Shown here piece by piece: positions 17,411 through 31,436 of a stretch of 64,000 bases of DNA (positions are counted from its first letter, which is position 1; every line of letters begins with the position of its first letter). Source of the stretch: Clostridiales bacterium (GTDB taxonomy: Bacteria; Bacillota; Clostridia; Oscillospirales; Oscillospiraceae); contig CABIXV010000002.1 of NCBI GenBank assembly GCA_902362775.1, positions 1,679 to 65,678 on the forward strand, given 5' to 3'. The position numbers and the translations under genes were made by a program. The notes beneath the pieces were generated by a model. The model searched no databases, was not told the DNA's origin, and worked only from the letters and a program-made list of their open reading frames with translations.

Positions 17411-17459
17411 GTCCGAATTCAGACTTTTCTAGTATAGTCTGAATTCAGACTATTGTCAA
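17411..17459 (-). promoter_or_regulatory. marR-MATE promoter with two operators
   Basis: Minus-strand TTGACA (17454-17459) and TATACT (17431-17436) are exactly 17 nt apart. A perfect 20-nt palindrome, ATAGTCTGAATTCAGACTAT (17434-17453), fills the spacer. A second near-copy, GTCCGAATTCAGAC (17411-17424), lies over the expected +1. Both share the core GTCTGAATTCAGAC with centres 26 nt apart. Confidence 0.85.
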
Positions 17460-17489
17460 TCTCTTTTTTAGGATATTTTAAAAAAACGC

Positions 17490-17520
17490 TTGACTTGGAG
17501 TATACTCCAGTGTATACAGT
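17490..17520 (+). promoter_or_regulatory. MerR-type promoter of the cupin/CMD/AKR operon
   Basis: TTGACT (17490-17495) is followed by the palindrome TGGAGTATACTCCA (17496-17509), then TACAGT (17515-17520) at a 19-nt spacing or TATACA (17513-17518) at 17 nt. An operator in an overlong spacer is the hallmark of MerR-activated promoters. The gene at 19943-20341 encodes the expected activator. Confidence 0.8.
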
Positions 17521-17554
17521 AGGAGCGATCAAACTACACTGTGAGGTCTGCCAA

Positions 17555-17971
17555 ATGAAACATGGTTTGTCTAATTCTGTAATCTTCGCACGCGGAGAGG
17601 AAAACACCGACTTTGCCCAGTATTTTGTTGGACGAAGCTATCTGAACATACTGTCTCTCCAAGGCGTAGTCATCGGCAACGTCACCTTTGAACCAGGCTG
17701 CCGCAATAACTGGCACATCCACCAAGCATCCCAGAGTGGTGGTCAGATCCTGCTATGTACCGGAGGCCGGGGCTGGTATCAGGAGTGGGGCCAGGAACCC
17801 AGAGAACTCCATGCTGGTGATGTGGTCCATATCCCCGCAGGCGTCAAGCACTGGCATGGCGCAGCCAAAAACAGTTGGTTCGTCCACTTGGCGGTAGAAG
17901 TTCCTGGACAGGATACCTACAATCAGTGGTTGGAGCCGGTGGATCAGAGCCAGTATGACCTGCTGCCCTGA
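17555..17971 (+). CDS. Cupin-domain protein
   Basis: A 138-residue single-domain cupin. Motif 1 is NNWHIHQASQSGGQILLCTGG (His-x-His with downstream Glu replaced by Gln) and motif 2 is AGDVVHIPAGVKHWHGA, giving a plausible metal site. It probably acts as a small oxidoreductase, isomerase or sensor in the cytoplasm. Such cupins are often paired with carboxymuconolactone-decarboxylase-like proteins, as here. The start at 17555 follows GAGGTCTGCCAA; a longer frame would begin upstream of the promoter and is rejected. Confidence 0.85.
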   Translation: MKHGLSNSVIFARGEENTDFAQYFVGRSYLNILSLQGVVIGNVTFEPGCRNNWHIHQASQSGGQILLCTGGRGWYQEWGQEPRELHAGDVVHIPAGVKHWHGAAKNSWFVHLAVEVPGQDTYNQWLEPVDQSQYDLLP

Positions 17972-18010
17972 CAATCAGTTCTTCATGGCAATACAAGGAG
18001 GAGATCACCT

Positions 18011-18763
18011 ATGCCGCTGTCTGAAACCGCCCAAAAAAATTATACTCGGATGTTTGGAGATTTTCCGCCTCCCCTGGCTGACTCCGACCCAGAATTTACC
18101 CGTCTGTTTCTGGATTTTGCGCTGGATGAGGTACCAAGCCAGACAAAGCCAGACGACCGGACCCACTTTTTGACTGTTCTGGCTGCCCTCATGGGGTGCC
18201 AGGGACTAGACTGTTTTCAGGCCATGGCCCCTGCCGCTCTTCGTTCCGGCCTCTCTCCAGTGGAACTGAAAGAACTAGTCTACCAGGGAACCGCCTATCT
18301 GGGTCTGGGGCGGGTGCTCCCTTTTTTGAAGGCCGTCAATGAGGCTCTCACCGCTGCCGGTGTCCCTCTGCCCCTGGAGGAGCAGGGCACCACTGATCCC
18401 GACAGCCGTCTGGAAGCAGGCAATCAGGCCCAAGTGGATATTTTTGGGACACATATGCGTGGCTTTCAAAATAGCGGGCCCCAGGAAAGCCGCCACATCA
18501 ACCGCTGGCTGGCCGGCAACTGCTTTGGCGATTATTATACCCGCGGCGGGCTGGATTACCGGGACCGAGAGCTTATCACCTTCTGCTTTCTGGCCGCCCA
18601 AGGTGGCTGTGAACCTCAGCTCACTAGCCACGCCGCCGCTAATCTGCGGCTGGGAAATGATAAGCCCCTTCTAATCCGGGTGATCTCCCAATGTCTGCCC
18701 TATATTGGCTATCCTAGGAGTCTCAACGCCCTTACCTGCATTAATCAGGCAGCTACAAAATAA
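18011..18763 (+). CDS. Carboxymuconolactone decarboxylase/AhpD-like protein
   Basis: A 250-residue protein with two tandem CMD-type helical domains (about residues 30-115 and 135-240). The second contains RELITFCFLAAQGGCEPQLTSHAAAN. The first, around AALMGCQGLDCFQ, has a Cys pair with an unusual spacing rather than the standard CxxC of AhpD. It may be a peroxidase-partner or a decarboxylase-like protein. GGAGGAGATCACCT precedes the ATG. It sits between the cupin and the Fe-S aldo/keto reductase in a MerR-controlled operon. Confidence 0.85.
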   Translation: MPLSETAQKNYTRMFGDFPPPLADSDPEFTRLFLDFALDEVPSQTKPDDRTHFLTVLAALMGCQGLDCFQAMAPAALRSGLSPVELKELVYQGTAYLGLGRVLPFLKAVNEALTAAGVPLPLEEQGTTDPDSRLEAGNQAQVDIFGTHMRGFQNSGPQESRHINRWLAGNCFGDYYTRGGLDYRDRELITFCFLAAQGGCEPQLTSHAAANLRLGNDKPLLIRVISQCLPYIGYPRSLNALTCINQAATK

Positions 18764-18783
18764 AAGAACAGGAGAACTACAAC

Positions 18784-19929
18784 ATGAAATACCGCATACT
18801 GGGCCGCACTGGCCTTCGGGTCAGTGAGATTGGCATGGGCTGCGAGGGGCTGGTAGACAAGCCCTATACAACCGTGAAGGAATTTATTGACCAGATGGAG
18901 GAGAGCGGCATCAACTGCATCGACCTCTACTCCCCTGACCCGGATATGAGGTCTAACCTGGGCCGCGCCCTCCGGGGGCGCCGCAACAAGTTTGTCCTTC
19001 AGGCCCACCTGTGCACCATCTGGAAGAACGGTCAATACAAGCGGACCAGGAACATCGACGAGGTGCGCGAGAGCTTTGAGGATCAGCTCCACCGCCTGGA
19101 AACGGACCATGTGGAGATCGGCATGGTCCACTATGTGGATTCTCTCTCTGACTGGGAGGCGGTCCAGTCTGGGCCGGTCATGGCCTATGCCCAGCAGCTG
19201 AAGGCGGCGGGCCGCATCGGCTGCATCGGTCTGTCCAGCCACAACCCCCAAGTAGCCCAGGCGGCAGTGGGCAGCGGTCTTATCGACGTGCTCATGTTCA
19301 GTGTCAATCCCTGCTACGATCTGCAGCCCGCCAGCGAGGATGTAGAGGAGTTGTGGGCGGAGAAAAACTATGAAAAAGACCTAGTCAACATGGACCCACA
19401 GCGCCAGGCCCTCTATGAGAGCTGCCAGAGGCAGGGAGTGGGCATCACCGTGATGAAGGCTTTTGGGGGCGGCGACCTGCTCAGTCAGTATTCCCCTGCC
19501 GGAAAGGCTCTTACCCCCTTTCAGTGCCTCCACTATGCCCTGACCCGCCCCGGTGTGGCCTCAGTCATGTCAGGGGCCCGAACTCTGGAGGAACTGCGTG
19601 TTTGTTTGGACTATGAGCAGGCCAGTGAAGAGGAAAAGGACTATGCCGCCGCCTTTGCCTCCCTGCCTAAGATCAGTTGGAAGGGACACTGTATGTACTG
19701 CGGTCACTGCGCTCCCTGCCCTAAGGGGATTGACGTGGCCTCCGTCACCAAGTTTTTCAATCTTGCCAAGGCGCAGGGCCAGATTCCGGAAACGGTGCGG
19801 GAGCATTATATGGGCCTCCCCAGCCACGCTGGGGCGTGTATCGCCTGCGGCGCCTGTGAGAATCGCTGTCCCTTTGGCGTCCCTATCATCCGAAATATGG
19901 CGGACGCCGCCGCTCTGTTTGGACTGTAA
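18784..19929 (+). CDS. Aldo/keto reductase with C-terminal 2x[4Fe-4S] domain
   Basis: A 381-residue fusion: an AKR barrel (residues 1 to about 285) and a ferredoxin-like tail with CMYCGHCAPCP and CIACGACENRCP, each able to hold a [4Fe-4S] cluster. The barrel begins MKYRILGRTGLRVSEIGMGC; the usual Asp is in CIDLYSP, while the catalytic Tyr/Lys positions are less clear. Such proteins are common in anaerobes and probably couple carbonyl reduction to ferredoxin-like electron transfer. AACAGGAGAACTACAAC precedes the ATG. It is cotranscribed with the cupin and CMD genes. Confidence 0.9.
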   Translation: MKYRILGRTGLRVSEIGMGCEGLVDKPYTTVKEFIDQMEESGINCIDLYSPDPDMRSNLGRALRGRRNKFVLQAHLCTIWKNGQYKRTRNIDEVRESFEDQLHRLETDHVEIGMVHYVDSLSDWEAVQSGPVMAYAQQLKAAGRIGCIGLSSHNPQVAQAAVGSGLIDVLMFSVNPCYDLQPASEDVEELWAEKNYEKDLVNMDPQRQALYESCQRQGVGITVMKAFGGGDLLSQYSPAGKALTPFQCLHYALTRPGVASVMSGARTLEELRVCLDYEQASEEEKDYAAAFASLPKISWKGHCMYCGHCAPCPKGIDVASVTKFFNLAKAQGQIPETVREHYMGLPSHAGACIACGACENRCPFGVPIIRNMADAAALFGL

Positions 19930-19942
19930 GGAGGACTGTTCC

Positions 19943-20341
19943 ATGACCATTGCCGAAGTGAGCAGACAATATGGTATCTCTGCCGATACCCTGCGGTACT
20001 ACGAGCGTATCGGACTCATTCCTCCGGTCCCCCGGAACAAGGGCGGCATCCGTGACTATGACCAGGAGTCCTGCGGCTGGATCGAGCTGATGAAGTGTAT
20101 GCGTTCGGCCGGGGTACAGATCGAGGCTCTTATCAAGTATGTGGACCTATTTCAGCAGGGAGACGCCACTCTGGATGCCCGAAAGGCTCTGCTGATGGAC
20201 CAGCGGGATCGGCTGGTGGCCCGCATGGCGGATATGCAGGCCTCGCTGGACCGGCTGAATGACAAAATCCAGCGTTATGAGCAGGGGCTGATGTCCCAGG
20301 AGCGCCTGCTCCAGCGACTCCATACGGAGCGCCAGATGTAA
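19943..20341 (+). CDS. MerR-family transcriptional activator
   Basis: A 132-residue MerR-type regulator. The N-terminal HTH and wing (MTIAEVSRQYGISADTLRYYERIGLIPPV) are followed by a dimerisation coiled coil (about residues 80-120) and a short tail without the Cys residues of metal sensors. It resembles the AdhR group that responds to reactive aldehydes. The real start at 19943 follows AAGGAGGACTGTTCC, 13 nt after the AKR stop; the frame is open much further upstream, but that overlaps the AKR gene. It likely activates the operon through the palindrome at 17496-17509. Confidence 0.9.
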   Translation: MTIAEVSRQYGISADTLRYYERIGLIPPVPRNKGGIRDYDQESCGWIELMKCMRSAGVQIEALIKYVDLFQQGDATLDARKALLMDQRDRLVARMADMQASLDRLNDKIQRYEQGLMSQERLLQRLHTERQM

Positions 20342-20428: not shown

Positions 20429-20458
20429 TTGTCCATTTCCTCTGGAATATGCTATAAT
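20429..20458 (+). promoter_or_regulatory. Promoter of the TauE/anSME pair
   Basis: TTGTCC (20429-20434), 18 nt, TATAAT (20453-20458), with a 50-nt leader to the TauE start. Confidence 0.7.
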
Positions 20459-20512: not shown

Positions 20513-21304
20513 ATGCAGTACATACTATATTTTTTGATCGCCATCGGCGCTACCACAGTGGGCTCCCTCACGGGGATGGGAGGCGGAGTTATCATCAAGC
20601 CGCTGATGGATGTGATGCACCACTTCGATGTGGAGACCATCGGTGTCTTGTCCTCCATCACGGTCTTCTCCATGTCCGCTGTTTCCATTGGAAAGCAGAT
20701 GCTGGCCAAGGTACAGATTCCCTTTCAAATTGCCATTCCCCTCTCTCTTGGTTCTGTGGTGGGCGGCTACATCGGACAGTGGATGTTGAGCGCCATCGTA
20801 TCCGGCGTTCAGGCCCAGGGCTTGGTCACCGTAGTCCAGAACGGACTGCTGGCCGTCCTCATCCTGTGTGTCTACCTCTATATGAAGCATAAGGCGAATA
20901 TCCGGGGGCTCCAGCTCTCCGGGGTCCCGGTATCCCTGGCGGCCGGCTGCTTTCTCGGCATCTGTTCCTCTTTTCTAGGGATCGGCGGCGGCCCGATCAA
21001 CGTAGCCCTTATCATCTACCTATACTCTGTCAGCACGAAAATGGCCACTGTCTGCTCTCTGATGACCATTCTTTTTGCCCAAATCTCCAAGCTGGTCACG
21101 GTGGCCCTTTCTACCGGGTTTCTGGTATATGACCTGTCTGTCGCTCCGGTCATGGTGGTGGGCGCCATCGCCGGCGGCTTTCTCGGCGCCAGCTTGAGCA
21201 AGCGGTTCTCCGAGGCGGGAGTCGAGCGGGCCTTCAACTGCGTTCAGCTCCTGGTGCTGGCCATTGCCCTGTTCAATATCGCCCGCAACCTGATTGGGGG
21301 GTGA
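20513..21304 (+). CDS. TauE/SafE-family sulfite/sulfonate-type permease
   Basis: A 263-residue membrane protein with about eight segments and two related halves, marked by GSLTGMGGGVIIKPL and FLGIGGGPINVALI. TauE/SafE proteins are associated with export or import of sulfite, sulfonates or other small anions. Start 20513 lies 7 nt after GGGAGGT; the frame is open 48 codons upstream through the terminator and promoter. It overlaps the sulfatase-maturase gene closely, so export of sulfate or sulfite produced by sulfatase action is a reasonable inference. Confidence 0.85.
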   Translation: MQYILYFLIAIGATTVGSLTGMGGGVIIKPLMDVMHHFDVETIGVLSSITVFSMSAVSIGKQMLAKVQIPFQIAIPLSLGSVVGGYIGQWMLSAIVSGVQAQGLVTVVQNGLLAVLILCVYLYMKHKANIRGLQLSGVPVSLAAGCFLGICSSFLGIGGGPINVALIIYLYSVSTKMATVCSLMTILFAQISKLVTVALSTGFLVYDLSVAPVMVVGAIAGGFLGASLSKRFSEAGVERAFNCVQLLVLAIALFNIARNLIGG

Positions 21305-21306
21305 GC

Positions 21307-22425
21307 ATGGGAAATCTCACTTTCTTAGTCAAGCCCGCCTCCAGCCTGTGCGGGATGCGATGCCGCTACTGCTTTTATGAGGACATTTCTGCCCTTCGGT
21401 CCGTCAAGAGCATGGGCGTTATGTCACTGGAAACCGCGCACCGGCTCCTGGAGTCTGGCATACAGGCGGCAGGTCCTCATGGCTCCCTCCAAATCACCTT
21501 CCAGGGCGGCGAACCCACGCTGGCTGGTCTGGACTTTTTCCAAAGTTTTATCGCTTTGGAACGGGAGCTCTGCCCTTCTACAATCCAAATCAGCCACTCC
21601 ATCCAGACCAACGGAATGGCGCTGGATGGAGACTGGGTCCGGTTTTTTCAGGAAAATCGGTTTCTGGTAGGCCTGTCTCTGGATGGAAGCCGGGAGATCC
21701 ACGACCGCTTCCGGGTGGACGCCCAGGGCCGGGGAAGCTGGGACCGGGCGACCCGTTCCCTGGCCCTTTTGGACAAGGCCGGTGTGGAAACCAACCTTCT
21801 GTGCGTCATTACAGGTCCTCTGGCCCGCAGCGCCCAAAAGGTGTATCATTCTCTGAACAAGCTGGGCAGCCATGCCCTTCAGTTCATCCCCTGCCTGGAC
21901 CCCCTAGAGGGGGAACGTGGGTGTATGCCCTGGTCTCTGACCCCCCAGCGGTACAGTCAGTTTCTTCGAGACCTGTTTGACTGCTGGTATCTGGATTTGC
22001 AGCGAGGCCACTATGTGAGCATCCGTCTCTTTGACGACTATCTCCGCATCCTGGCCGGGATGCCCCCCAGCACCTGTGCCTCCTCTGGTGCCTGCGGAAG
22101 CTACTTGGTCGTGGAGGGGGACGGCGGCCTCTATCCCTGCGACTTCTTTGTGCTGGACCAGTGGTATCTGGGCAATATCCACCAAATGTCTGTAGAAGAG
22201 GCCGTCCAGAGTCCGAGAGCCCTGGCCTTTCTGGATGAGGGCCGCCGCCGGCCCCGAGACTGCCTTGGCTGTCCCCACCTCTCCCTCTGCCGGGGCGGGT
22301 GTCCCCGGGATTGGACTGGACTTGGACTGGACAGAGCAAACTACTACTGCCCTGCCTTCCACGCCTTCCTGGACTACGCCCTCCCCCGGCTTCGGCAGGC
22401 CGCGGGAGCCATTCTATCTAAATAA
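21307..22425 (+). CDS. Anaerobic sulfatase-maturating radical SAM enzyme (anSME)
   Basis: A 372-residue radical SAM/SPASM protein. The SAM-cluster motif is C15-GMR-C19-RY-C22; TFQGGEPTLAG is the GGE motif. The C-terminal SPASM Cys set is CASSGAC, LYPCDFF, CLGCPHLSLCRGGCPRDW and a last YYCPAFH. anSMEs oxidise the active-site Cys or Ser of sulfatases to formylglycine. A Cys-type sulfatase gene lies about 1.2 kb away on the other strand, making the partner clear. ATG 21307 follows GGGGGGTGAGC; a GTG two codons earlier overlaps the TauE stop and is also possible. Confidence 0.9.
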   Translation: MGNLTFLVKPASSLCGMRCRYCFYEDISALRSVKSMGVMSLETAHRLLESGIQAAGPHGSLQITFQGGEPTLAGLDFFQSFIALERELCPSTIQISHSIQTNGMALDGDWVRFFQENRFLVGLSLDGSREIHDRFRVDAQGRGSWDRATRSLALLDKAGVETNLLCVITGPLARSAQKVYHSLNKLGSHALQFIPCLDPLEGERGCMPWSLTPQRYSQFLRDLFDCWYLDLQRGHYVSIRLFDDYLRILAGMPPSTCASSGACGSYLVVEGDGGLYPCDFFVLDQWYLGNIHQMSVEEAVQSPRALAFLDEGRRRPRDCLGCPHLSLCRGGCPRDWTGLGLDRANYYCPAFHAFLDYALPRLRQAAGAILSK

Positions 22426-22427
22426 AC

Positions 22428-22473
22428 AAAAAAGCCCTGAGCGGTCCTGTCTGGACTGCTCAGGGCTTTTTTG
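22428..22473. terminator. Bidirectional terminator
   Basis: AAAAAAGCCCTGAGC pairs with GCTCAGGGCTTTTTT between two convergent operons. Confidence 0.9.
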
Positions 22474-22475
22474 TT

Positions 22476-23579
22476 TCAAAGTTCCCGAATGGAGGTGCCG
22501 ATGTAGATTTTGGGTTTCATCACATAGGTATAATTTTTGTCGTCACAGTCCCGGCGCTCGATCATGGTCATCAGGCGGGTAGCCACCAGTTGGCCCACCT
22601 TCCTACCCTGATGGACAGAGCAGGTGATCCCCTCTGCTTCCCAGTCATTCCCAGAGTAGTCAAAGCAGACCAAGGAACAGTCCTCAGGAACCCGCCTTCC
22701 CTGCTCCTCCAACACCTGGCGCACCAGGCGGTAGATCATATAGTTGCAGCATACCACCGCAGTATACTTGGGCAGGCTCCGCAGAAAGCGGTCAATGGAG
22801 CGGGCAAAACGGGGATCGTGGGCCTCGTTAGACACGCACCACTTGATATAGTCGTCCTGGTAATCCACCCCCCGCTTGATCAGGGCGGCGGTGGTTCCCT
22901 GGAATTTCTCAATGCTCTGATAGTTGTCATAGACGAAAATACCCGCAATCTGCCGGTGTCCCGCCTGTACCAAAAGCCCAATCAGCCGGTCAGCGCACTC
23001 CATGTCGTTGACGATGACCCGGGGATAGTGCAGATTTTTATAATAGTTGTTATAGAAGATGACCGGGATGCGCCGGCGATAAATTTCCTGATAGCAGTCC
23101 AGATTTGGGTTGAGCAGACTGGCCTTTACACCGTCGATAATAAAGCCATCAAAATGCTGGTGCACCACTGTCTGTAAGCAGCGCCGTTCCGTGGAAAACT
23201 TGTTGTCTGTAAAGAACACCCGCAGATCCACCCGGTCAGCGGGGAGCACGCTCTTTACCCCTTCCAGCAGACCGGAATTGGCGTTGGAATCCTGCCCCTG
23301 AAGAATCAGTCCAATCTTTTGGGCGGTGGATCCCACATCCAGTTCTCTTGACAGGGCGGCCTCCTTATTGATGTAAGTACCACTGCCCTTTACCCGGCGG
23401 ATCAGTCCCTCCTGGTCCATACGGGCCAGGGCGGACCTGGCCGTCTCCCGGCTGATGTCCAGCCGGCGGCACAGGGCGTTCTCCGAGGGAAGCTTCAAAT
23501 TGCCGGAAAACTTGTTTTCATCAATATAGGCCAGCAACCAGCGGTAGACCTGCTCCGACTTTTTATCGGCGCCTGCCAA
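22476..23579 (-). CDS. GntR-type HTH fused to LacI-type ligand domain (AraR-like regulator)
   Basis: A 367-residue hybrid regulator. Residues about 8-75 are a GntR winged helix (LKLPSENALCRRLDISRETARSALARMDQEGLI, then VKGSGTYI). Residues about 88-365 are a periplasmic-binding-protein fold as in LacI (IGLILQG, FDGFIIDG, YPRVIVND, GHRQIAGI, SLVCFDYSGNDW). Such AraR-like proteins respond to sugars. Translation starts at TTG 23579, after GGAGGGAATTTCC and 13 nt past the sulfatase stop. It closes the sulfatase/TTT operon and probably acts on the palindrome at 28170-28188. Confidence 0.88.
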   Translation of the reverse strand: MAGADKKSEQVYRWLLAYIDENKFSGNLKLPSENALCRRLDISRETARSALARMDQEGLIRRVKGSGTYINKEAALSRELDVGSTAQKIGLILQGQDSNANSGLLEGVKSVLPADRVDLRVFFTDNKFSTERRCLQTVVHQHFDGFIIDGVKASLLNPNLDCYQEIYRRRIPVIFYNNYYKNLHYPRVIVNDMECADRLIGLLVQAGHRQIAGIFVYDNYQSIEKFQGTTAALIKRGVDYQDDYIKWCVSNEAHDPRFARSIDRFLRSLPKYTAVVCCNYMIYRLVRQVLEEQGRRVPEDCSLVCFDYSGNDWEAEGITCSVHQGRKVGQLVATRLMTMIERRDCDDKNYTYVMKPKIYIGTSIREL

Positions 23580-23592
23580 GGAAATTCCCTCC

Positions 23593-24945
23593 TCAGTCAA
23601 CAATGGCCGGCCGGGTCCCCTCCGCCCGCTCGATCCAGTCCGCCAGGCGGGCACGCATATCCTCCTTCACCTGGGCATAGGAGGGATCGGCTACCACGTT
23701 GTTCAACTGCCAGGGATCGACCTTCAGATCATAGAGGAAGTCGTCCGCGTAGAGGTCAGAGGCTGCCGCCTCGCCGCCGTTGACACCGGGGGCATAGACA
23801 GAGTAGAGATAATTGGCCGTACGGACGCAGCGGCCCACCCGGCTCTCCGAAATCTGGGCGAACACCTGGTTAGGTCTATTATCGTCCTTTTTCTCCACTA
23901 CGTCAAGGAGGTTCTCTCCGATCATCTCATCGCCCACGTCTACACCAGCTAGGGCCAGAATGGTCTTGGGCAGGCTTTCGGTGGACACCAGTTCCTCCAC
24001 CGCTACACCGCCCTTGAAGGGGCCGCCGGCGATGACCAGGGGCACATGGAGGGCGCCGTCATGGCAGGATCGCTTGTAGTCATCGTAGCCGTTGAGATGG
24101 CCGTCGGTGTTTCGGGTTTTGAAGTGGGAGCCGTGGTCGGAGGCAAAGATGATGACGGTATTATCGTACAGCCCCTCCTTTTTCAGCCGCTCCACCAGCC
24201 GTCCCAGGTTCTCGTCCAGGCTGGCGCACTGGCCCAGGTAGTCAGGGTACTCCTCCGCGGCGTTGCCTTTGAGCACCTCCAGATCGTGGGGCAGGACGAA
24301 GTTCCTGTACTTCTCCTTGGAGCCCTCGGGTCCCTCGTAGTGCTTGCGGTCATTCTGGTGGTGGGGCTCGATCTGGGAGATGGTCATAAAGAAGGGCTTT
24401 TTCCGGTCATAGGTGTCAAAGAACTCCAGCGCCATGTTGTTGATGCAGTCGGCCCGGTAGCCCTTGAAGTCGACGCGGTTGTTGTTCTCGTCGAACACAT
24501 AGCCGTCATAGCCGTGGGAGGTAAACTCCAACACGTCGGCGGCCCTCCAGTATCCGGTATATCCACCCCGAAGCTCCTTGGGAATGGCAGTGATGGTGTG
24601 GTCAATCGTGGGGGGCTTCTCCAGCTCGCCGTCACTGGCCAGGTGCCACTTGCCGATGTAGGCGGTCTCATATCCCGCCTCCTCGATGTAGTTTGCCAGA
24701 GTCTTGACGCCAGCGGGCAGCATGATGTTGTTGCGGAAGCAGCCCGTCTCGGTGGGATATTTTCCGGTCTGGAACAGGGCGCGGCAGGGGCCGCACACCG
24801 GCTGGGGGGAAAAGGCGTTGTCAAACTTCACGCCTTCCTGGGCCAGTTTGTCCAGATTGGGGGTGATGTCCAGAGGCTGGCCGAAACAGCCGCAGGTATC
24901 CCAGCGCTGCTGGTCGGTGAAGTAAAAGATAATATTATTGGGCAT
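23593..24945 (-). CDS. Cytoplasmic Cys-type sulfatase
   Basis: A 450-residue type I sulfatase. The formylglycine signature is C51-G-P-C-R-A-L-F-Q-T-G, with C51 the residue to be oxidised by anSME. Metal ligands include D11-Q12 near the N-terminus and the D-H pair in FASDHGSHF. The protein starts MPNNIIFYFTDQQRW without a signal peptide, so it should act inside the cell on an imported sulfate ester. GGAGGACAACTGAT precedes the ATG, overlapping the tctA end. It resembles choline-sulfatase/arylsulfatase-type enzymes, but the substrate is unknown; the cotranscribed TTT transporter suggests a carboxylated one. Confidence 0.92.
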   Translation of the reverse strand: MPNNIIFYFTDQQRWDTCGCFGQPLDITPNLDKLAQEGVKFDNAFSPQPVCGPCRALFQTGKYPTETGCFRNNIMLPAGVKTLANYIEEAGYETAYIGKWHLASDGELEKPPTIDHTITAIPKELRGGYTGYWRAADVLEFTSHGYDGYVFDENNNRVDFKGYRADCINNMALEFFDTYDRKKPFFMTISQIEPHHQNDRKHYEGPEGSKEKYRNFVLPHDLEVLKGNAAEEYPDYLGQCASLDENLGRLVERLKKEGLYDNTVIIFASDHGSHFKTRNTDGHLNGYDDYKRSCHDGALHVPLVIAGGPFKGGVAVEELVSTESLPKTILALAGVDVGDEMIGENLLDVVEKKDDNRPNQVFAQISESRVGRCVRTANYLYSVYAPGVNGGEAAASDLYADDFLYDLKVDPWQLNNVVADPSYAQVKEDMRARLADWIERAEGTRPAIVD

Positions 24946-24946
24946 A

Positions 24947-26461
24947 TCAGTTGTCCTCCTTCTGGACGGCGGCCTTGGCAGCCTTGGCCTCTTTCAGCTT
25001 GCCGCGAATGATGGCGGCCAGTGCCACGACGATCAGCGCCAGGAATATCTTGCAGTAGATACTCTGGAAGAAAATGCTGGGGCTGCCGTCGGAGATGAGC
25101 AGGGCACGGCGGAAGTTGGTCTCGGTCATGCTGCCCAGCACCAGGCCCAGCAGGATGGGCACGGGAGGCAGGTCCAGCTTGCGCAAGACCCAGGCCAGCA
25201 CGCCGAAGATGAGGGCCACGCCCACATCAAAGTAGTTTTCGTTGACGGAGTAGGCGCCGGCAAAGCAGAAGATCACAATGATGGGGGTAAGAATCTCCTG
25301 GGGGATGGAGACCACCTTGGCAAACAGGGTGGTAAGGAACTTGCCCTGGAGCAGCATAAAGAGGTTGACCAGGATGAGTCCCAGCATGATGGCATACATG
25401 ATATCGCCATCTGTAGTGAACAGAGAAAGGCCGGGGTTCAGGCCGTTAATCATCAGGGCGGAGAGCATGATGGCCACCGTGCCATCGCCGGGGATGCCCA
25501 GGGTGAGCAGGGGGATCAGAGTTGCGCCGGTAACGGCGTTGTTGGCCGATTCGGCGGCGGCGATACCCTCCACGGAGCCGTGGCCGAACTCCTCTGGATG
25601 CCTGGACAGGTTCTTGGCAGTGTTGTAGCTGAACCAGGACGCCTCGGAGGCGCCGGTGCCGGGGATGATGCCTACCATCACCCCGATAATAGAGGACATG
25701 ATCACCGGGCGGGCCATGCGTTTATACTCCTCCCTGGTGATCTTGCCGTCGTCCTTGATCTTGGTGGTGTCCAGATTTAGGCTGCCCAGCCGCTTTTCCG
25801 CCTTGGCCAGGATCTCCACCAGGGCGAACAGGCCGATCAGGCAGATGGCCAGATCCAGCCCGAGATACAGCCGGGAGATGCCGAAGGTGAAGCGGTCATA
25901 GCTGGTCATGGGGTCCGTGCCCACGCAGGAGATGAGCAGGCCCAAGCAGGCGGAAATCAGGCCCCTGATGATACTCTTGCCGGAGACACCCGCGATGATG
26001 GTCAGACCGAAGACACAGACCATAAAGTACTCCGCAGTGCCCAGCTGGGCGGCCACCTTGGCCACCTGGGGCCCCAGAAACAGCAGCATCAGGGCGGAGA
26101 ACACGCCGCCAAAGGTAGAGGCGTACAGGGCAATCTTCAGGGCCGCCTTGGTCCGCCCCTGCTCAGACAGAGGATGGCCGTCCAGCATGGTGGCCGCGGC
26201 GTGTGGCGTACCCGGCGTATTGATCAGGATGGCGGATACGCTGCCGCCATAACCGCCGGCGCAGTAGATGCCCAGCAGGAACATCATGCCCGGGATGGCG
26301 GTCATGGTATAGGTGACGGGCAGGAACAGGATGACGCACAGGATCACGCTCAGTCCGGGAATAGCGGCAAAGACCGATCCGACGAACACGCCGATATTGA
26401 TCCACAGGATATTTTCCAGCGTGAAAAGAAGGCCGGTAGCGGGAACGATATATTGCATCAT
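24947..26461 (-). CDS. TTT transporter large membrane subunit (TctA family), second system
   Basis: A 504-residue TctA-type permease with about 12 membrane segments. Signatures are GSVFAAIPGLSVILCV, ILINTPGTPHAAATML and IIPGTGASEASWFSY. The C-terminus is Lys/Ala-rich and cytoplasmic. It differs clearly from the first TctA in the window (5260-6789), so the two are not a recent duplication. It follows TctB by 18 nt and ends 1 nt before the sulfatase start codon, indicating tight cotranscription with the sulfatase. Confidence 0.93.
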   Translation of the reverse strand: MMQYIVPATGLLFTLENILWINIGVFVGSVFAAIPGLSVILCVILFLPVTYTMTAIPGMMFLLGIYCAGGYGGSVSAILINTPGTPHAAATMLDGHPLSEQGRTKAALKIALYASTFGGVFSALMLLFLGPQVAKVAAQLGTAEYFMVCVFGLTIIAGVSGKSIIRGLISACLGLLISCVGTDPMTSYDRFTFGISRLYLGLDLAICLIGLFALVEILAKAEKRLGSLNLDTTKIKDDGKITREEYKRMARPVIMSSIIGVMVGIIPGTGASEASWFSYNTAKNLSRHPEEFGHGSVEGIAAAESANNAVTGATLIPLLTLGIPGDGTVAIMLSALMINGLNPGLSLFTTDGDIMYAIMLGLILVNLFMLLQGKFLTTLFAKVVSIPQEILTPIIVIFCFAGAYSVNENYFDVGVALIFGVLAWVLRKLDLPPVPILLGLVLGSMTETNFRRALLISDGSPSIFFQSIYCKIFLALIVVALAAIIRGKLKEAKAAKAAVQKEDN

Positions 26462-26479
26462 AAAACGTTCAGCCTCCTT

Positions 26480-26995
26480 CTAAAATTCCACATTCAGGAC
26501 GAAACGGAAGCACGCCCAAATGACCACAGCCAAGGTGATGGTGATCACATAATAAGAGGGCTTTTTGCAGCGGAAATAGACCAAAAAGCCCAGACAGCAG
26601 AACACAGCGCCCACCACAAACAAGTCGGTGAAGCGGCACAGCAGATAGGTGATAACCAGAATGGTCAGGATAGCCAATGCTTTCAGCTCGGTCTGGAGGT
26701 TGATCACCTTCCAGTTGAGGGGCTGCTTGGTAAAGAGCTTATACAGCTCCTTGACAATCAGCATCCCGCAGCAAATCATCATCACGACCATCAGCAGGGT
26801 GGGGAAGGCGCGGCCATTCACTACGTCCTTTTCCGACACGATCACCTGCTGGGGCATAACGAACAGGATTGCCAGCGCAAAGAGAAAAAAGAGAATTCCC
26901 ACCGTCAAGTCCACAGGGATGCGGATCTCTTTTTCACAGAGCTTTTCTCCCCATGCGTCCAGACGGGCATGGAATCGATTGATCCAGTTTTTCAT
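26480..26995 (-). CDS. TTT transporter small membrane subunit (TctB family), second system
   Basis: A 171-residue protein with four membrane segments, the size and place of TctB. It begins MKNWINRFHARLDAWGEK and has an amphipathic N-terminus before the first segment VGILFFLFALAILFV. Start 26995 follows GAGGAGGTTTTTATTCGG; a longer frame uses an unsupported GTG. Sequence similarity within TctB is low, so the call rests on topology and context. Confidence 0.8.
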   Translation of the reverse strand: MKNWINRFHARLDAWGEKLCEKEIRIPVDLTVGILFFLFALAILFVMPQQVIVSEKDVVNGRAFPTLLMVVMMICCGMLIVKELYKLFTKQPLNWKVINLQTELKALAILTILVITYLLCRFTDLFVVGAVFCCLGFLVYFRCKKPSYYVITITLAVVIWACFRFVLNVEF

Positions 26996-27034
26996 CCGAA
27001 TAAAAACCTCCTCAGTCTGCACACACATAAAACC

Positions 27035-27070
27035 GGGGAATGGGTGGGATATTTCCCCATCCCATTCCCC
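27035..27070 (-). terminator. Intercistronic stem-loop between tctC and tctB, second system
   Basis: GGGGAATGGG and CCCATTCCCC form the outer stem, extended by GTGGG/CCCAT. No U-run follows. It sits at the same position as the hairpin at 7317-7352 in the first TTT operon. Confidence 0.6.
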
Positions 27071-27091
27071 AGTTATTGTGGTTGGTCAGGA

Positions 27092-28132
27092 TCAGCCGGC
27101 AACGATATCCTTGTACTCGTTGACGATGTTCTTTACATTCTCCACATGGGCGTCCACATCCTCCTGGGACATGGGGTCAACCTCCAGCAGCATGGTATCC
27201 TGCAGCCAGGCGGCAACTTCCTCATCGGCCAGGATCTTGCCATACAGCTCCTTCAGAGCAGCTACAGTGGCCTCGTCCGTACCAGCACGGGCCATGATGA
27301 AGCAGCGGTTGCGGAAGTAGGGATAGCCCTTCTCACCGACGCCCTCCACGCCCGCGAAGGGTCCATGCTCCAGAGCCTTCTCATCAAAGGCGCAGGGGAT
27401 GGTCACGCCGCCCTGCTGATAGGTCTCCAGAATTTGGGACTGGTGGGAGACGGCAAACTGGGTCTCGCCCTTGGCCACAGCCTGAGCGGCCTCGGCGGCG
27501 GACTGATAGGGAGTCAGCTTCAGCTTGTCACCGGCGCCCATCTTTCCGAACAGGGCTGCGGCCAGGAATGCCTCAGAGCTGGTGGCGCCGTTGACAGCCA
27601 CACTAATCTCATTGCCGGCGGCTACATAGGCCTCCAGGTCGGCGATGGTCTTGATATTCAAATCAGCGGAGGCGGAGAGCACAAAGATGGAGGAGTAGAG
27701 GTTTTCCACATAGGCAAAGTCCTCAGCGGTAAACTTCATTTTGGCAGGATCGATGATGGAGGTAATAGACAGCAGGCCCTCGCCCACAAATACCAGCTCG
27801 GGATCATTGGCCTTGGTGTCCATGACCCAGGTATTGACAGTGGCGGCATCGCCCTTAATTGCCTCGGCGACCAGAGTGATCGCGTCGGAATACTCAGTGG
27901 ACTTAGAGGCGGCCTTCTGGCTCACCATAGCCGCTACACCGGAGGGGGCCCAGGGGCAGGTCACCTTCCAGCTGGACTTCTTGACAGTAGTGGAGGGGGT
28001 GCTGGTGCTTGTACTAGAATTGCTAGAGCTTCCGTCATTGGTTCCGGTGTTTTTTCCACTGTCGCCGCAGCCAGCCAGCAGACCAACGGCCATTGCAAGA
28101 GCAAGAGATAAGCTAAGTAAACGCTTTTTCAT
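27092..28132 (-). CDS. TTT transporter substrate-binding lipoprotein (TctC/Bug family), second system
   Basis: A 346-residue lipoprotein with lipobox LLAGC (Cys22) and a Ser/Thr-rich linker to about residue 50. The mature protein has a Bug-like start, WKVTCPWAPSGVAAMVSQ, in which the usual Gly-Gly of PxxxGG is altered, and later GNEISVAVNGATSSE. It is divergent from the first TctC and probably binds another ligand. AAAAAGGAGAATGAATC precedes the ATG. It heads the operon that includes the sulfatase. Confidence 0.85.
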   Translation of the reverse strand: MKKRLLSLSLALAMAVGLLAGCGDSGKNTGTNDGSSSNSSTSTSTPSTTVKKSSWKVTCPWAPSGVAAMVSQKAASKSTEYSDAITLVAEAIKGDAATVNTWVMDTKANDPELVFVGEGLLSITSIIDPAKMKFTAEDFAYVENLYSSIFVLSASADLNIKTIADLEAYVAAGNEISVAVNGATSSEAFLAAALFGKMGAGDKLKLTPYQSAAEAAQAVAKGETQFAVSHQSQILETYQQGGVTIPCAFDEKALEHGPFAGVEGVGEKGYPYFRNRCFIMARAGTDEATVAALKELYGKILADEEVAAWLQDTMLLEVDPMSQEDVDAHVENVKNIVNEYKDIVAG

Positions 28133-28169
28133 GATTCATTCTCCTTTTTCACAAATTTTCCAGAATTGG

Positions 28170-28227
28170 GGTGTGTGACCACCACACCTGTTGTCCTCAA
28201 TATATCATGGTGGATTTTTTGAATCAA
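28170..28227 (-). promoter_or_regulatory. Promoter and candidate operator of the sulfatase/TTT operon
   Basis: Minus-strand TTGATT (28222-28227), 17 nt, TATATT (28199-28204). Just downstream, over the likely start of transcription, lies GGTGTGTGACCACCACACC (28170-28188), with arms GGTGTG/CACACC. The position fits repression by the operon's own GntR/LacI-type regulator. Confidence 0.65.
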
Positions 28228-28640
28228 CAGATTTAAAACAAATTTTTATAAAGTTGTATGGCAATAACCTCTTTTTAGAAATGCTGTATTCTTTTCATTA
28301 AAATTTTGTTTATTTTATACAATTTTTATGGTCCTTTTTTGACAGACTCACTCAGTGGCTGATAAGAAGTTTTATATTCAACAGATCTATTTCATATAAA
28401 CTCTTTTGAATGAAAACCAAACAATTAATTGAAAGAAACCGCACTCTTTATAGTTTAAGAAAGCAAAATCTTAATCTAGTGTGTGGTTCGAATGCTAAAT
28501 GCAAAAAAGATAACTTACTCAGATTGGCTCAACCTATTTCTGAGTATTTAATGCTCCAAAAGTACAAACCGCCCTTCCGGCGGAAACACAGAAAAACCTA
28601 AGAAGTAGTCCATACAATAGTTGAATAAAATTTTTAGATG
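28228..28640. other. AT-rich gap with no recognisable gene
   Basis: This stretch is much richer in A+T than its surroundings. A 63-codon frame at 28410-28601 has no ribosome site and no recognised homology. It may be left over from an integrated element next to tRNA-Arg. Confidence 0.5.
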
Positions 28641-30340: not shown

Positions 30341-31000
30341 TCAACCGATGGTGACCAACAGGTCATCGGTATTGACAGCGGTACCCACCACAGCGGAAAC
30401 GGACTTGACGGTGCCGTCCGCAGGGGCGGAAACTTCGATTTCCATCTTCATGGCCTCCAGAACCACCAGGACATCGCCTGCCTTTACGGACTGGCCTACG
30501 GAGCACTCTACCTTAAAGATGTTGCCGGGCATAGGGCTCTTGACCGCTGTCTCACCAGCCGCCACCGCAACGGGGGCGGCTGCGGTCGGAACCGCGGCCG
30601 GAGCAGGCGTAGCGGCGGGAGCAGGGGCGGCAGCCACAGGGGCAGCCGCGGCAGGAGCCGCAGGGGCGGCGGCAATATTGGTGATGCGGAAGGAGTTGGG
30701 CGCCATCCCGGACTCCTCAGCAACCGCAGCCATCATAACCGCAACCAGCTCACCCTCATCCACAGCCGGTGCGGCAGGCGCAGCCGCAGGGGCGGGCGCG
30801 GGGGCGGCTTTCTTTTGCGGAGCGGGAGCGGCAGACTTTCCCTCGATGGCGTTCACGATCTTGGAAATAACCATGATAACCAGCATCAGGATGGCCAGCA
30901 TCAGGAATACCACAAGCAGACCACAAACGGCGACCATTAGCGCCTCCGGGACTGAAAGCGGTTCAAATGGATTCAGGATTGCGATATCTGCATTAGGCAT
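30341..31000 (-). CDS. gcdD: Glutaconyl-CoA decarboxylase delta (OadG-like) subunit fused to a biotinyl domain
   Basis: A 219-residue protein in three parts. Residues about 18-47 are one membrane helix and 48-110 an OadG-like segment (DEGELVAVMMAAVAEESG). An Ala/Pro-rich linker (about 111-146) follows. Residues 147-219 are a complete biotin carrier domain with VLEAMKMEIEV, the Lys being the biotinylation site. In Acidaminococcus GcdD is about 107 residues and lacks the carrier domain. The biotinyl domain is almost identical to that of the adjacent gcdC product, pointing to recent duplication or gene conversion. It anchors the complex and may add a second swinging arm. Confidence 0.88.
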   Translation of the reverse strand: MPNADIAILNPFEPLSVPEALMVAVCGLLVVFLMLAILMLVIMVISKIVNAIEGKSAAPAPQKKAAPAPAPAAAPAAPAVDEGELVAVMMAAVAEESGMAPNSFRITNIAAAPAAPAAAAPVAAAPAPAATPAPAAVPTAAAPVAVAAGETAVKSPMPGNIFKVECSVGQSVKAGDVLVVLEAMKMEIEVSAPADGTVKSVSAVVGTAVNTDDLLVTIG

Positions 31001-31016
31001 AGATCATAGTCCTCCC

Positions 31017-31436
31017 TTAACCCAGAGTGACCAGCAGATCGTCCGTATTGACAGCGGTGCCTACCACAGCAGAAACAGCCTTGACCGTACCATCCACAGG
31101 TGCGGAAACCTCAATTTCCATCTTCATGGCCTCTAGAACCACCAAGACATCGCCTGCCTTCACGGACTGGCCCACAGAGCACTCCACCTTAAAAATGTTG
31201 CCAGGCATGGGGCTCTTGACTGCCGTCTCACCGGCGGCCACGGTGGCGGCAGGAGCCGCAGCGGGAGCAGGCGCTGGGGCGGGAGCGGGAGCGGCGGCAG
31301 GAGCAGCCACAGGGGCGGCCACGGGAGCGGCAGCCACAGGGGCGGCGGCAGGAGCAACGGCCGCGGGAGCGGCGGCGCCAGTTTTCTCCACGGTCACGCT
31401 GTAAACCTTGCCGTTCACTGTAACGTTGTAGTTCAT
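31017..31436 (-). CDS. gcdC: Glutaconyl-CoA decarboxylase gamma subunit (biotin carrier)
   Basis: A 139-residue biotin carrier. A short N-terminal beta strand pair (NVTVNGKVYSVTVEKTG) is followed by an Ala/Pro linker (residues about 20-66) and a biotinyl domain with EAMKMEI. It carries CO2 from the GcdA transferase to the GcdB pump. The flexible linker fits the long path between subunits. It is the first gene behind its own strong promoter and a 5' stem-loop. AAGGGGAAAAC precedes the ATG. Confidence 0.92.
   Translation of the reverse strand: MNYNVTVNGKVYSVTVEKTGAAAPAAVAPAAAPVAAAPVAAPVAAPAAAPAPAPAPAPAAAPAATVAAGETAVKSPMPGNIFKVECSVGQSVKAGDVLVVLEAMKMEIEVSAPVDGTVKAVSAVVGTAVNTDDLLVTLG

Follow-up and report, generated by a model that had tools for sequence, protein, structure and literature searches.

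A tripartite tricarboxylate transporter operon joined to a sulfatase gene in an Oscillospiraceae genome: a candidate module for import and cytoplasmic desulfation of a small sulfate ester

What could a sulfatase without a signal peptide be doing when its gene stands one nucleotide behind the genes of a tripartite tricarboxylate transporter (TTT)? The question is raised by a locus in a 64,000-nucleotide stretch of contig CABIXV010000002.1 (assembly GCA_902362775.1; Clostridiales bacterium, Oscillospiraceae), hereafter the window, for which the original prediction, made from the DNA letters, had proposed import of an intact sulfated carboxylate, internal desulfation and export of the sulfur anion. 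All genes that it named were recovered where it had placed them, in two convergent operons—tctC-tctB-tctA-sulfatase-regulator on the minus strand (28132 to 22476) and tauE-anSME on the plus strand. Pfam and NCBIfam profiles agree with the names, including the TauE/SafE anion permease and the sugar-type regulator, in which a GntR DNA-binding domain is joined to a LacI-type sensor. The features, in window coordinates, are as follows.

20429-20458, plus strand: tauE promoter, sigma-70-like, TTGTCC-18-TATAAT
20513..21304, plus strand: tauE, TauE/SafE-family anion permease, proposed sulfate exporter (PF01925, 99.7 bits, cut-off 32.6)
21301..22425, plus strand: anSME, radical SAM sulfatase maturase (TIGR03942, 349.5 bits; PF04055, 48.2 bits; PF13186 (SPASM), 36.4 bits)
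about 22424..22476, both strands: hairpin, bidirectional terminator between the convergent operons
22476..23579, minus strand: regulator, GntR helix-turn-helix with LacI-type sugar sensor, TTG start (PF00392, PF13377)
23593..24945, minus strand: Cys-type S1-fold sulfatase, 450 residues, no signal peptide (PF00884, 164.5 bits)
24781..24795, minus strand: motif C51-G-P-C-R, predicted formylglycine site
24947..26461, minus strand: tctA, large membrane subunit of the TTT (PF01970, 501.4 bits)
26480..27028 (likely start 26995), minus strand: tctB, small membrane subunit (PF07331, 32.7 bits, cut-off 29.1)
27092..28132, minus strand: tctC, lipoprotein-type solute-binding protein (PF03401, 39.8 bits, cut-off 27)
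28199..28257, minus strand: tctC promoter TTGATT-17-TATATT, extended -10 type, with a conserved element over the -35 box

Judging from this gene set and its recurrence in relatives, we regard the locus as probably a self-contained module for TTT import, cytosolic desulfation and sulfate export. TctCBA, a complete TTT encoded in one operon, would bring a small sulfate ester into the cell unaltered; the likeliest candidates are sulfated sugar acids or sugar derivatives set free from host or dietary glycans. The neighbouring anSME would convert Cys51 of the cytoplasmic sulfatase to formylglycine, the sulfatase would remove the sulfate in the cytoplasm, and the carbon skeleton would enter central metabolism. 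TauE—or, in relatives, a TauE of another subfamily or a CHR pair—would export the sulfate, and the GntR/LacI-type regulator would sense the substrate or product and control the tctC promoter.

Relatives of the window sulfatase were retrieved by scanning GTDB contigs with exact peptides, and the best 80 of 104 relatives, representing 79 loci, were compared; this seeding and selection bias the set towards close kin. Fifty-eight loci (L001–L058) are close, with sulfatases of 67–94% identity, and 21 (L059–L079) are distant (<31%). Of the 54 close loci with at least 600 bp of upstream sequence, 43 have tctA, on the same strand, as the gene immediately before the sulfatase, a pattern that bears out the proposed coupling of TTT and sulfatase. 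The 1-nucleotide gap of the window has close counterparts, the tctA match ending within 7 bp of the sulfatase in 27 of the 43 linked loci. All three tct genes are present in 39 of 49 close loci with at least 2400 bp upstream, and, of the 55 whose downstream sequence reaches 900 bp or more, 38 have the regulator as the next gene after the sulfatase. This regulator accompanies 35 of 40 loci with adjacent tctA versus one of 11 misses. That one is L056, in which tctB continues directly into a truncated sulfatase, probably through an assembly fault; the locus is included among the misses behind the 43 of 54 and left out of the ten TTT-free loci discussed below. Frames split in L042, L035 and elsewhere were kept unmended. 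The search for the same gene set in related genomes, suggested along with the original prediction, has thus been run, and many of them conserve the arrangement.

The conservation extends to the promoter. An element of the form ACAACTTT-N15-AAANNTRTTG overlaps the -35 box of the tctC promoter and, with up to two mismatches, precedes tctC in all 33 sequences from loci that carry the regulator, the window included. It is absent from all seven without the regulator (L037, L040, L041, L049 and L159–L161); in L048 the element is present and the contig ends before the regulator position. At the genome level, with at most one mismatch, it occurs in 28 of 29 TTT-bearing genomes and in none of three without the TTT. 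The genomes are related, which is a confounder for this pairing of regulator and element. A regulon search of 32 genomes gave four further matches versus three for the backward pattern and showed no wider regulon; since the extra matches are few and near the backward-pattern level, the regulator probably acts on the tctC operon alone. Right behind the regulator, L025, L027, L044 and L055 encode a conserved protein of 578–822 residues with an exported-type start, of which the L027 copy had no Pfam match.

The sulfatase itself combines the S1 fold with the C/S-x-P-x-R site of Type I (S1) sulfatases, and none of 51 aligned sulfatases departs from C51, P53 or R55. Its first predicted strand spans residues 4-10, leaving no room for a signal peptide and agreeing with the cytosolic location originally proposed; the homolog of the Gram-negative Anaerobiospirillum likewise lacks one. 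Carbohydrate sulfatases rank first among its structural neighbours, which include chondroitin 4-O-sulfatases and a glucosamine-6-sulfatase, and the nearest solved structures are spread over several S1 subfamilies. Choline sulfatase (TIGR03417) was rejected, the window protein scoring 120.3 bits against a curated cut-off of 433.45. We find it very improbable that this S1-fold enzyme is instead a phosphate or phosphonate ester hydrolase. The PehA model (NF045661) does score 112.8 bits, and D11-Q12 with D270-H271 resemble what we take to be the metal site of phosphonate monoester hydrolases; however, the curated PehA cut-off is 900, anSME and TauE or CHR genes adjoin, and the structural ranking is headed by carbohydrate sulfatases.

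Read originally as the sulfatase's own maturase, the adjoining anSME passes the curated TIGR03942 cut-off, if barely (349.5 versus 349.45 bits). It lies within 5 kb of the sulfatase in 42 of 50 close loci with at least 3000 bp downstream. Exactly one anSME match of at least 260 bits was found in 28 of 34 TTT-bearing genomes, and in 22 of these 28 it shares the sulfatase contig. In G665 and G887, both with genome-sized contigs, about 1.2 and 3.4 kb separate the sole anSME from the sulfatase, and besides that sulfatase no PF00884 match (E ≤1e-12) there has a frame below 600 residues; longer PF00884 proteins in these genomes are presumably of the lipoteichoic-acid-synthase type. The module is the only clear sulfatase–maturase pair found in these two genomes.

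A slot for anion permeases recurs as well, with interchangeable occupants. L001 carries a TauE like that of the window (80% identity), 16 loci carry another TauE subfamily (33–37%), and Anaerobiospirillum carries a third. Pairs of CHR genes (PF02417, chromate transporter family) stand near the sulfatase in L003, L038, L043, L056 and L184, and those of L003, L056 and L184 occupy the position of the window's tauE. Altogether, TauE or CHR genes were found in 26 of 58 close loci versus none of 21 distant-sulfatase loci and none of 24 loci around other tctA genes, a comparison that favours the close loci because the queries came from them and the other-tctA loci span only about 4 kb. The repeated appearance of unrelated anion permeases in one slot would follow if sulfate must be removed.

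Several observations weigh against a self-contained module of this kind. First, the sole anSME lies on another contig in six of the 28 single-anSME genomes (G012, G021, G027, G031, G038, G849), and in G012 that contig also carries another PF00884 protein of similar length; in several of the six, the sulfatase contig ends early. L022 and L034 lack a nearby anSME, and of their genomes G002 (L022) has one elsewhere and G003 (L034) has none above 40 bits anywhere. No TauE or CHR of the tested kinds was found in 32 of 58 close loci, some on short contigs, and we found no catabolic gene shared across the family. The window TctC loop reads P60-W-A-P-S-G-V-A-A68, a departure from the carboxylate-binding consensus PFxAGGxxD in which the P and one G are kept, F is replaced by another aromatic residue, W, and A by P, G by S and D by A. 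Excerpts of PMC5812351 call this domain-1 motif (P-F-x-A-G-G-x-x-D) almost ubiquitous in TctC proteins; L159–L161 have P-W-A-V-G-G-L-A-D. Finally, ten of the 54 close loci have no directly adjacent tctA, yet the sulfatase persists in them, and tctA was not found in seven of these ten genomes, the genomes of TTT-free relatives being mostly draft assemblies.

The ten loci (L017, L022, L034, L036, L039, L045, L046, L047, L050, L057) supply what the original prediction had itself named as its refutation, namely sulfatases standing without the TTT in relatives. Taken to the letter they weaken it, though hardly in spirit, and the tree suggests that they reflect later loss. Remnants survive in two: L022 retains a 41-residue tctA stretch directly beside the sulfatase, the only such stretch in that genome, and L057 retains a tctC remnant. 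Two of the ten genomes hold only other TTTs, and in L050 another TTT (tctA 44%) stands beyond one intervening regulator gene. The sulfatase tree, built by a quick method with midpoint rooting, covers 47 of 51 alignment rows, four distant rows being excluded; rows L140 and L157 are labelled TTT although their TTT belongs to another subfamily. Within it, a 35-row clade (Shimodaira–Hasegawa-like approximate likelihood ratio support 100) joins 25 TTT-linked rows, some of them basal, with ten scattered TTT-free tips. Over the whole tree, the TTT label needs 10 changes versus 15.6 when shuffled, and two of 500 shuffles came as low. The TTT-free branch is always the longer in four sister pairs (0.56/0.082, 0.16/0.09, 0.53/0.22 and 0.13/0.072), although four pairs are no proof. 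Among 450 sulfatase positions, 197 are invariant in 25 TTT-linked enzymes that we picked from the 51-row alignment, and the ten TTT-free tips keep 186–197 of them (0–11 deviations).

Given the scattered tips within a TTT-linked clade and the two loci with remnants, later and repeated loss of the TTT appears to fit best. Read most simply, the TTT-free relatives have an enzyme with an unchanged substrate, and either a different importer has stepped in or the system is being lost. Immediately upstream of the TTT-free sulfatase of L039 lies a permease of the Asp-Al_Ex family, a possible replacement anion importer. The sulfatases that persist without a TTT would also suit an arrangement in which transporter and sulfatase share a promoter and act on different molecules. 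We judge this quite unlikely, against it being the direct adjacency in 43 of 54 loci, the 33 of 33 sequences joining regulator and element, and the joint presence of the genes in Anaerobiospirillum.

If the transporter does feed the sulfatase, what does it carry? That the importer is a TTT leads us to prefer a sulfated sugar acid, or some other sugar derivative bearing sulfate, at roughly even odds with all alternatives combined. According to excerpts of PMC5812351, characterised TTT substrates, with one exception, appear to carry two carboxylic groups or others such as sulfate or amide, and TTTs for sulfolactate and for galactarate/glucarate exist. The predicted model of the window TctC is clearly that of a TctC-family protein, with the TctC fold, and the protein likely binds an anion. 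The original prediction is borne out in part, but for its sulfated carboxylate the signs are mixed: it agrees with the transporter type and with genes for KDPG aldolase and DGOK, or for hexuronate metabolism, near two relatives, and it sits poorly with amino-sugar and host-glycan neighbours, the rarity of uronate isomerase (below) and the deviant TctC loop.

Those neighbours point to a substrate that would leave the module as such unchanged, namely an amino sugar or hexose that carries sulfate and stems from mucin or glycosaminoglycans, with the TTT recognising the sulfate itself; we hold this possible, if somewhat doubtful. In L045 (69%, TTT-free), the order is class II aldolase-SIS-TauE-sulfatase, and a NagA that passes its cut-off lies within a few kb. 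L182 and L183 (76 and 75%, TTT-free) lie beside GFO/IDH/MocA and a GH20C-type protein, L182 also beside GH35, and L166 (49%) has an ABC importer, named by eye, followed by class II aldolase-SIS-sulfatase. The anSME of L011, L024, L029 and L052 stands directly behind a GH112 lacto-N-biose phosphorylase, with ABC sugar importer genes also present where the contig extends that far, and may there serve mucin sugars. The sugar-type sensor of the regulator and the chondroitin and glucosamine sulfatases among the structural neighbours are in keeping with such a substrate, but structural nearness does not fix it. Moreover, apart from the GH112 cases, no amino-sugar genes were recognised beside TTT-linked loci, and the characterised TTT ligands in the excerpts of PMC5812351 are acids.

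A hexuronate or aldonate carrying sulfate and entering the 2-keto-3-deoxy-gluconate/galactonate route, again with the same module, has different neighbours in its favour. L161 (64%) carries, on one strand, TTT1, a KDPG/KHG aldolase (PF01081), a DGOK kinase (PF05035) and TTT2-sulfatase. The L184/L197 region of G665 is of hexuronate type, with an altronate/galactarate-dehydratase-type gene, two genes of the mannitol-dehydrogenase family, PfkB kinases, a TRAP binding protein and a KDPG aldolase that is separated from the CHR-CHR-anSME genes by about 2 kb. In the more distant L164 (51%), a gene of altronate-dehydratase type lies at a distance of about 2.8 kb, and a galactarate/glucarate TTT is on record in the excerpts of PMC5812351. 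These cases are few, however, and by our estimate a chance neighbour is to be expected among about 60 loci. Uronate isomerase (UxaC, PF02614) was found in only one (G849) of four TTT-bearing genomes in the 140-genome family sample, assuming that the isomerase and tctA counts used the same draw; the four are too few to carry a uronate route and, as they stand, count against it. GH88 exceeded its cut-off in only six of 34 TTT-bearing genomes, and we consider a hexuronate or aldonate unlikely. The same GH88 count, set against three of three TTT-free genomes, disfavours unsaturated glycosaminoglycan disaccharides.

The best PDB sequence matches of the window TctC are TphC and terephthalate-binding proteins, albeit weak (E 0.001–0.002), and TphC, an aromatic carboxylate importer, belongs to the TTT family according to excerpts of PMC8556258. 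Both facts would accommodate an aromatic sulfate, either a sulfated phenolic acid or another host phase II conjugate. Such a substrate nonetheless strikes us as improbable, given the sugar-type sensor of the regulator and the glycan-related neighbours of TTT-free relatives; no aromatic catabolic genes were recognised beside the loci examined.

How widely is the TTT–sulfatase module distributed? Protein collections are rich in such sulfatases: 6934 of 7997 scored matches had E ≤1e-30, and the 120 listed were 86–93% identical. Within the lineage the distribution is patchy: counting the genome of the window, the sulfatase (E ≤1e-120) was found in 21 of 394 genomes of the order and tctA (E ≤1e-200) in four of 140 genomes of the family. 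The L161 sulfatase as query matched six of 392 genomes of the order, none additional to those already found, and no relative was found in the viral contigs searched. The four Anaerobiospirillum rows form one clade (support 95) nested among Firmicutes rows, and their loci carry tctCBA, sulfatase and anSME together, a combination that suggests transfer of the module; Anaerobiospirillum probably acquired it in this way. A bolder version, in which this is an ancient mobile module for the wholly cytosolic desulfation of a TTT-imported, glycan-derived sulfated acid, the first TTT-coupled sulfatase system, with export swapped between TauE and CHR, we advance only tentatively, at rather less than an even chance. 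If it were true, CHR proteins would be physiological sulfate exporters in gut Clostridia. One genome, G009 (L050, L170), has 26 tctA-like matches and two additional TTT clusters that each include a pair of sulfatase-type genes, so that other TTT–sulfatase pairings may exist.

Some details of the window remain to be described. The anSME start overlaps the tauE stop by a few bases. The hairpin between the operons has a 24-pair stem (plus strand), with folding energies of -42.6 kcal/mol (z -12.0) on the plus and -38.6 kcal/mol (z -10.8) on the minus strand, and was not among the sites listed by a pattern-based terminator scan. TTG 23579 is the most probable start of the regulator, in place of 23654; a Shine-Dalgarno-like GAGGAGG, read by eye, precedes this TTG. 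For tctB, the inner ATG at 26995 is probably the start, because many relatives align only from residue 12. Upstream of tauE (17453-20341) lie genes for a cupin, a carboxymuconolactone-decarboxylase-like protein, an aldo-keto reductase with ferredoxin domains and, named by reading, a MerR-type protein; their sole match in L001–L079 is the MerR-type gene in L023. At 30341-31436, two adjoining biotin-carrier-type proteins of 219 and 139 residues have near-identical ends and Ala/Pro-rich linkers. They adjoin a GcdB/OadB-type decarboxylase subunit, with an HgdB-like protein further on (names again by sequence reading).

How, then, does this locus relate to what is known? Gut desulfation has mostly been studied in Bacteroides, where exported enzymes share their products with neighbours. 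If our reading is true, the Oscillospiraceae route would take the sulfated molecule whole, keeping the carbon private and releasing sulfate in a form usable by sulfate reducers. TTT proteins would also gain a further class of ligand, and orphan TauE and CHR genes a possible function. The arrangement, not recognised as described in the original prediction, was not found in print either: the passages available from open-licence papers naming both sulfatase and tripartite tricarboxylate transporter do not link the two, and a 2023 review of carbohydrate sulfatases (PMC10154612) contains none of the words cytoplasm, intracellular, transporter, Firmicutes or Bifidobacteri. Import, desulfation and export remains the best reading of the locus, but its import–desulfation logic has already been published with other importers. 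The TTT as partner is what we did not find in print, and the regulator–element pairing, the TauE/CHR interchange and the presence in Anaerobiospirillum are also new.

The closest published arrangements differ mainly in the importer and regulator. The ats1 and ats2 glycosulfatase clusters of Bifidobacterium breve, as described in excerpts of PMC9239261, likewise unite importer, maturase (anSME), sulfatase and regulator in one cluster. Unlike them, the window has a TTT with a solute-binding protein. The B. breve clusters reportedly use another transporter type together with a ROK regulator. An accessory island of Streptococcus pneumoniae, in the excerpted text of PMC3283741, also brings together a sulfatase, a sulfatase-modifying factor, an importer and a TauE-family protein, but with a cellobiose-type phosphotransferase system and a ROK protein in place of the TTT and the GntR/LacI-type regulator. 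The sulfolactate TTT SlcHFG resembles the proposed transporter in serving an acid with a sulfur oxyanion group (excerpts of PMC5812351 and PMC10507020); its substrate, however, is a sulfonate and not a sulfate ester, and desulfonation falls to other enzymes, none of which was recognised in the window cluster. The S1_11 sulfatases BT4656 (5g2v) and BT3177 (7p24) of gut Bacteroides share the S1 fold with the window sulfatase at 21–29% identity. Unlike it, Bacteroides S1_11 sulfatases are exported and tied to TonB systems.

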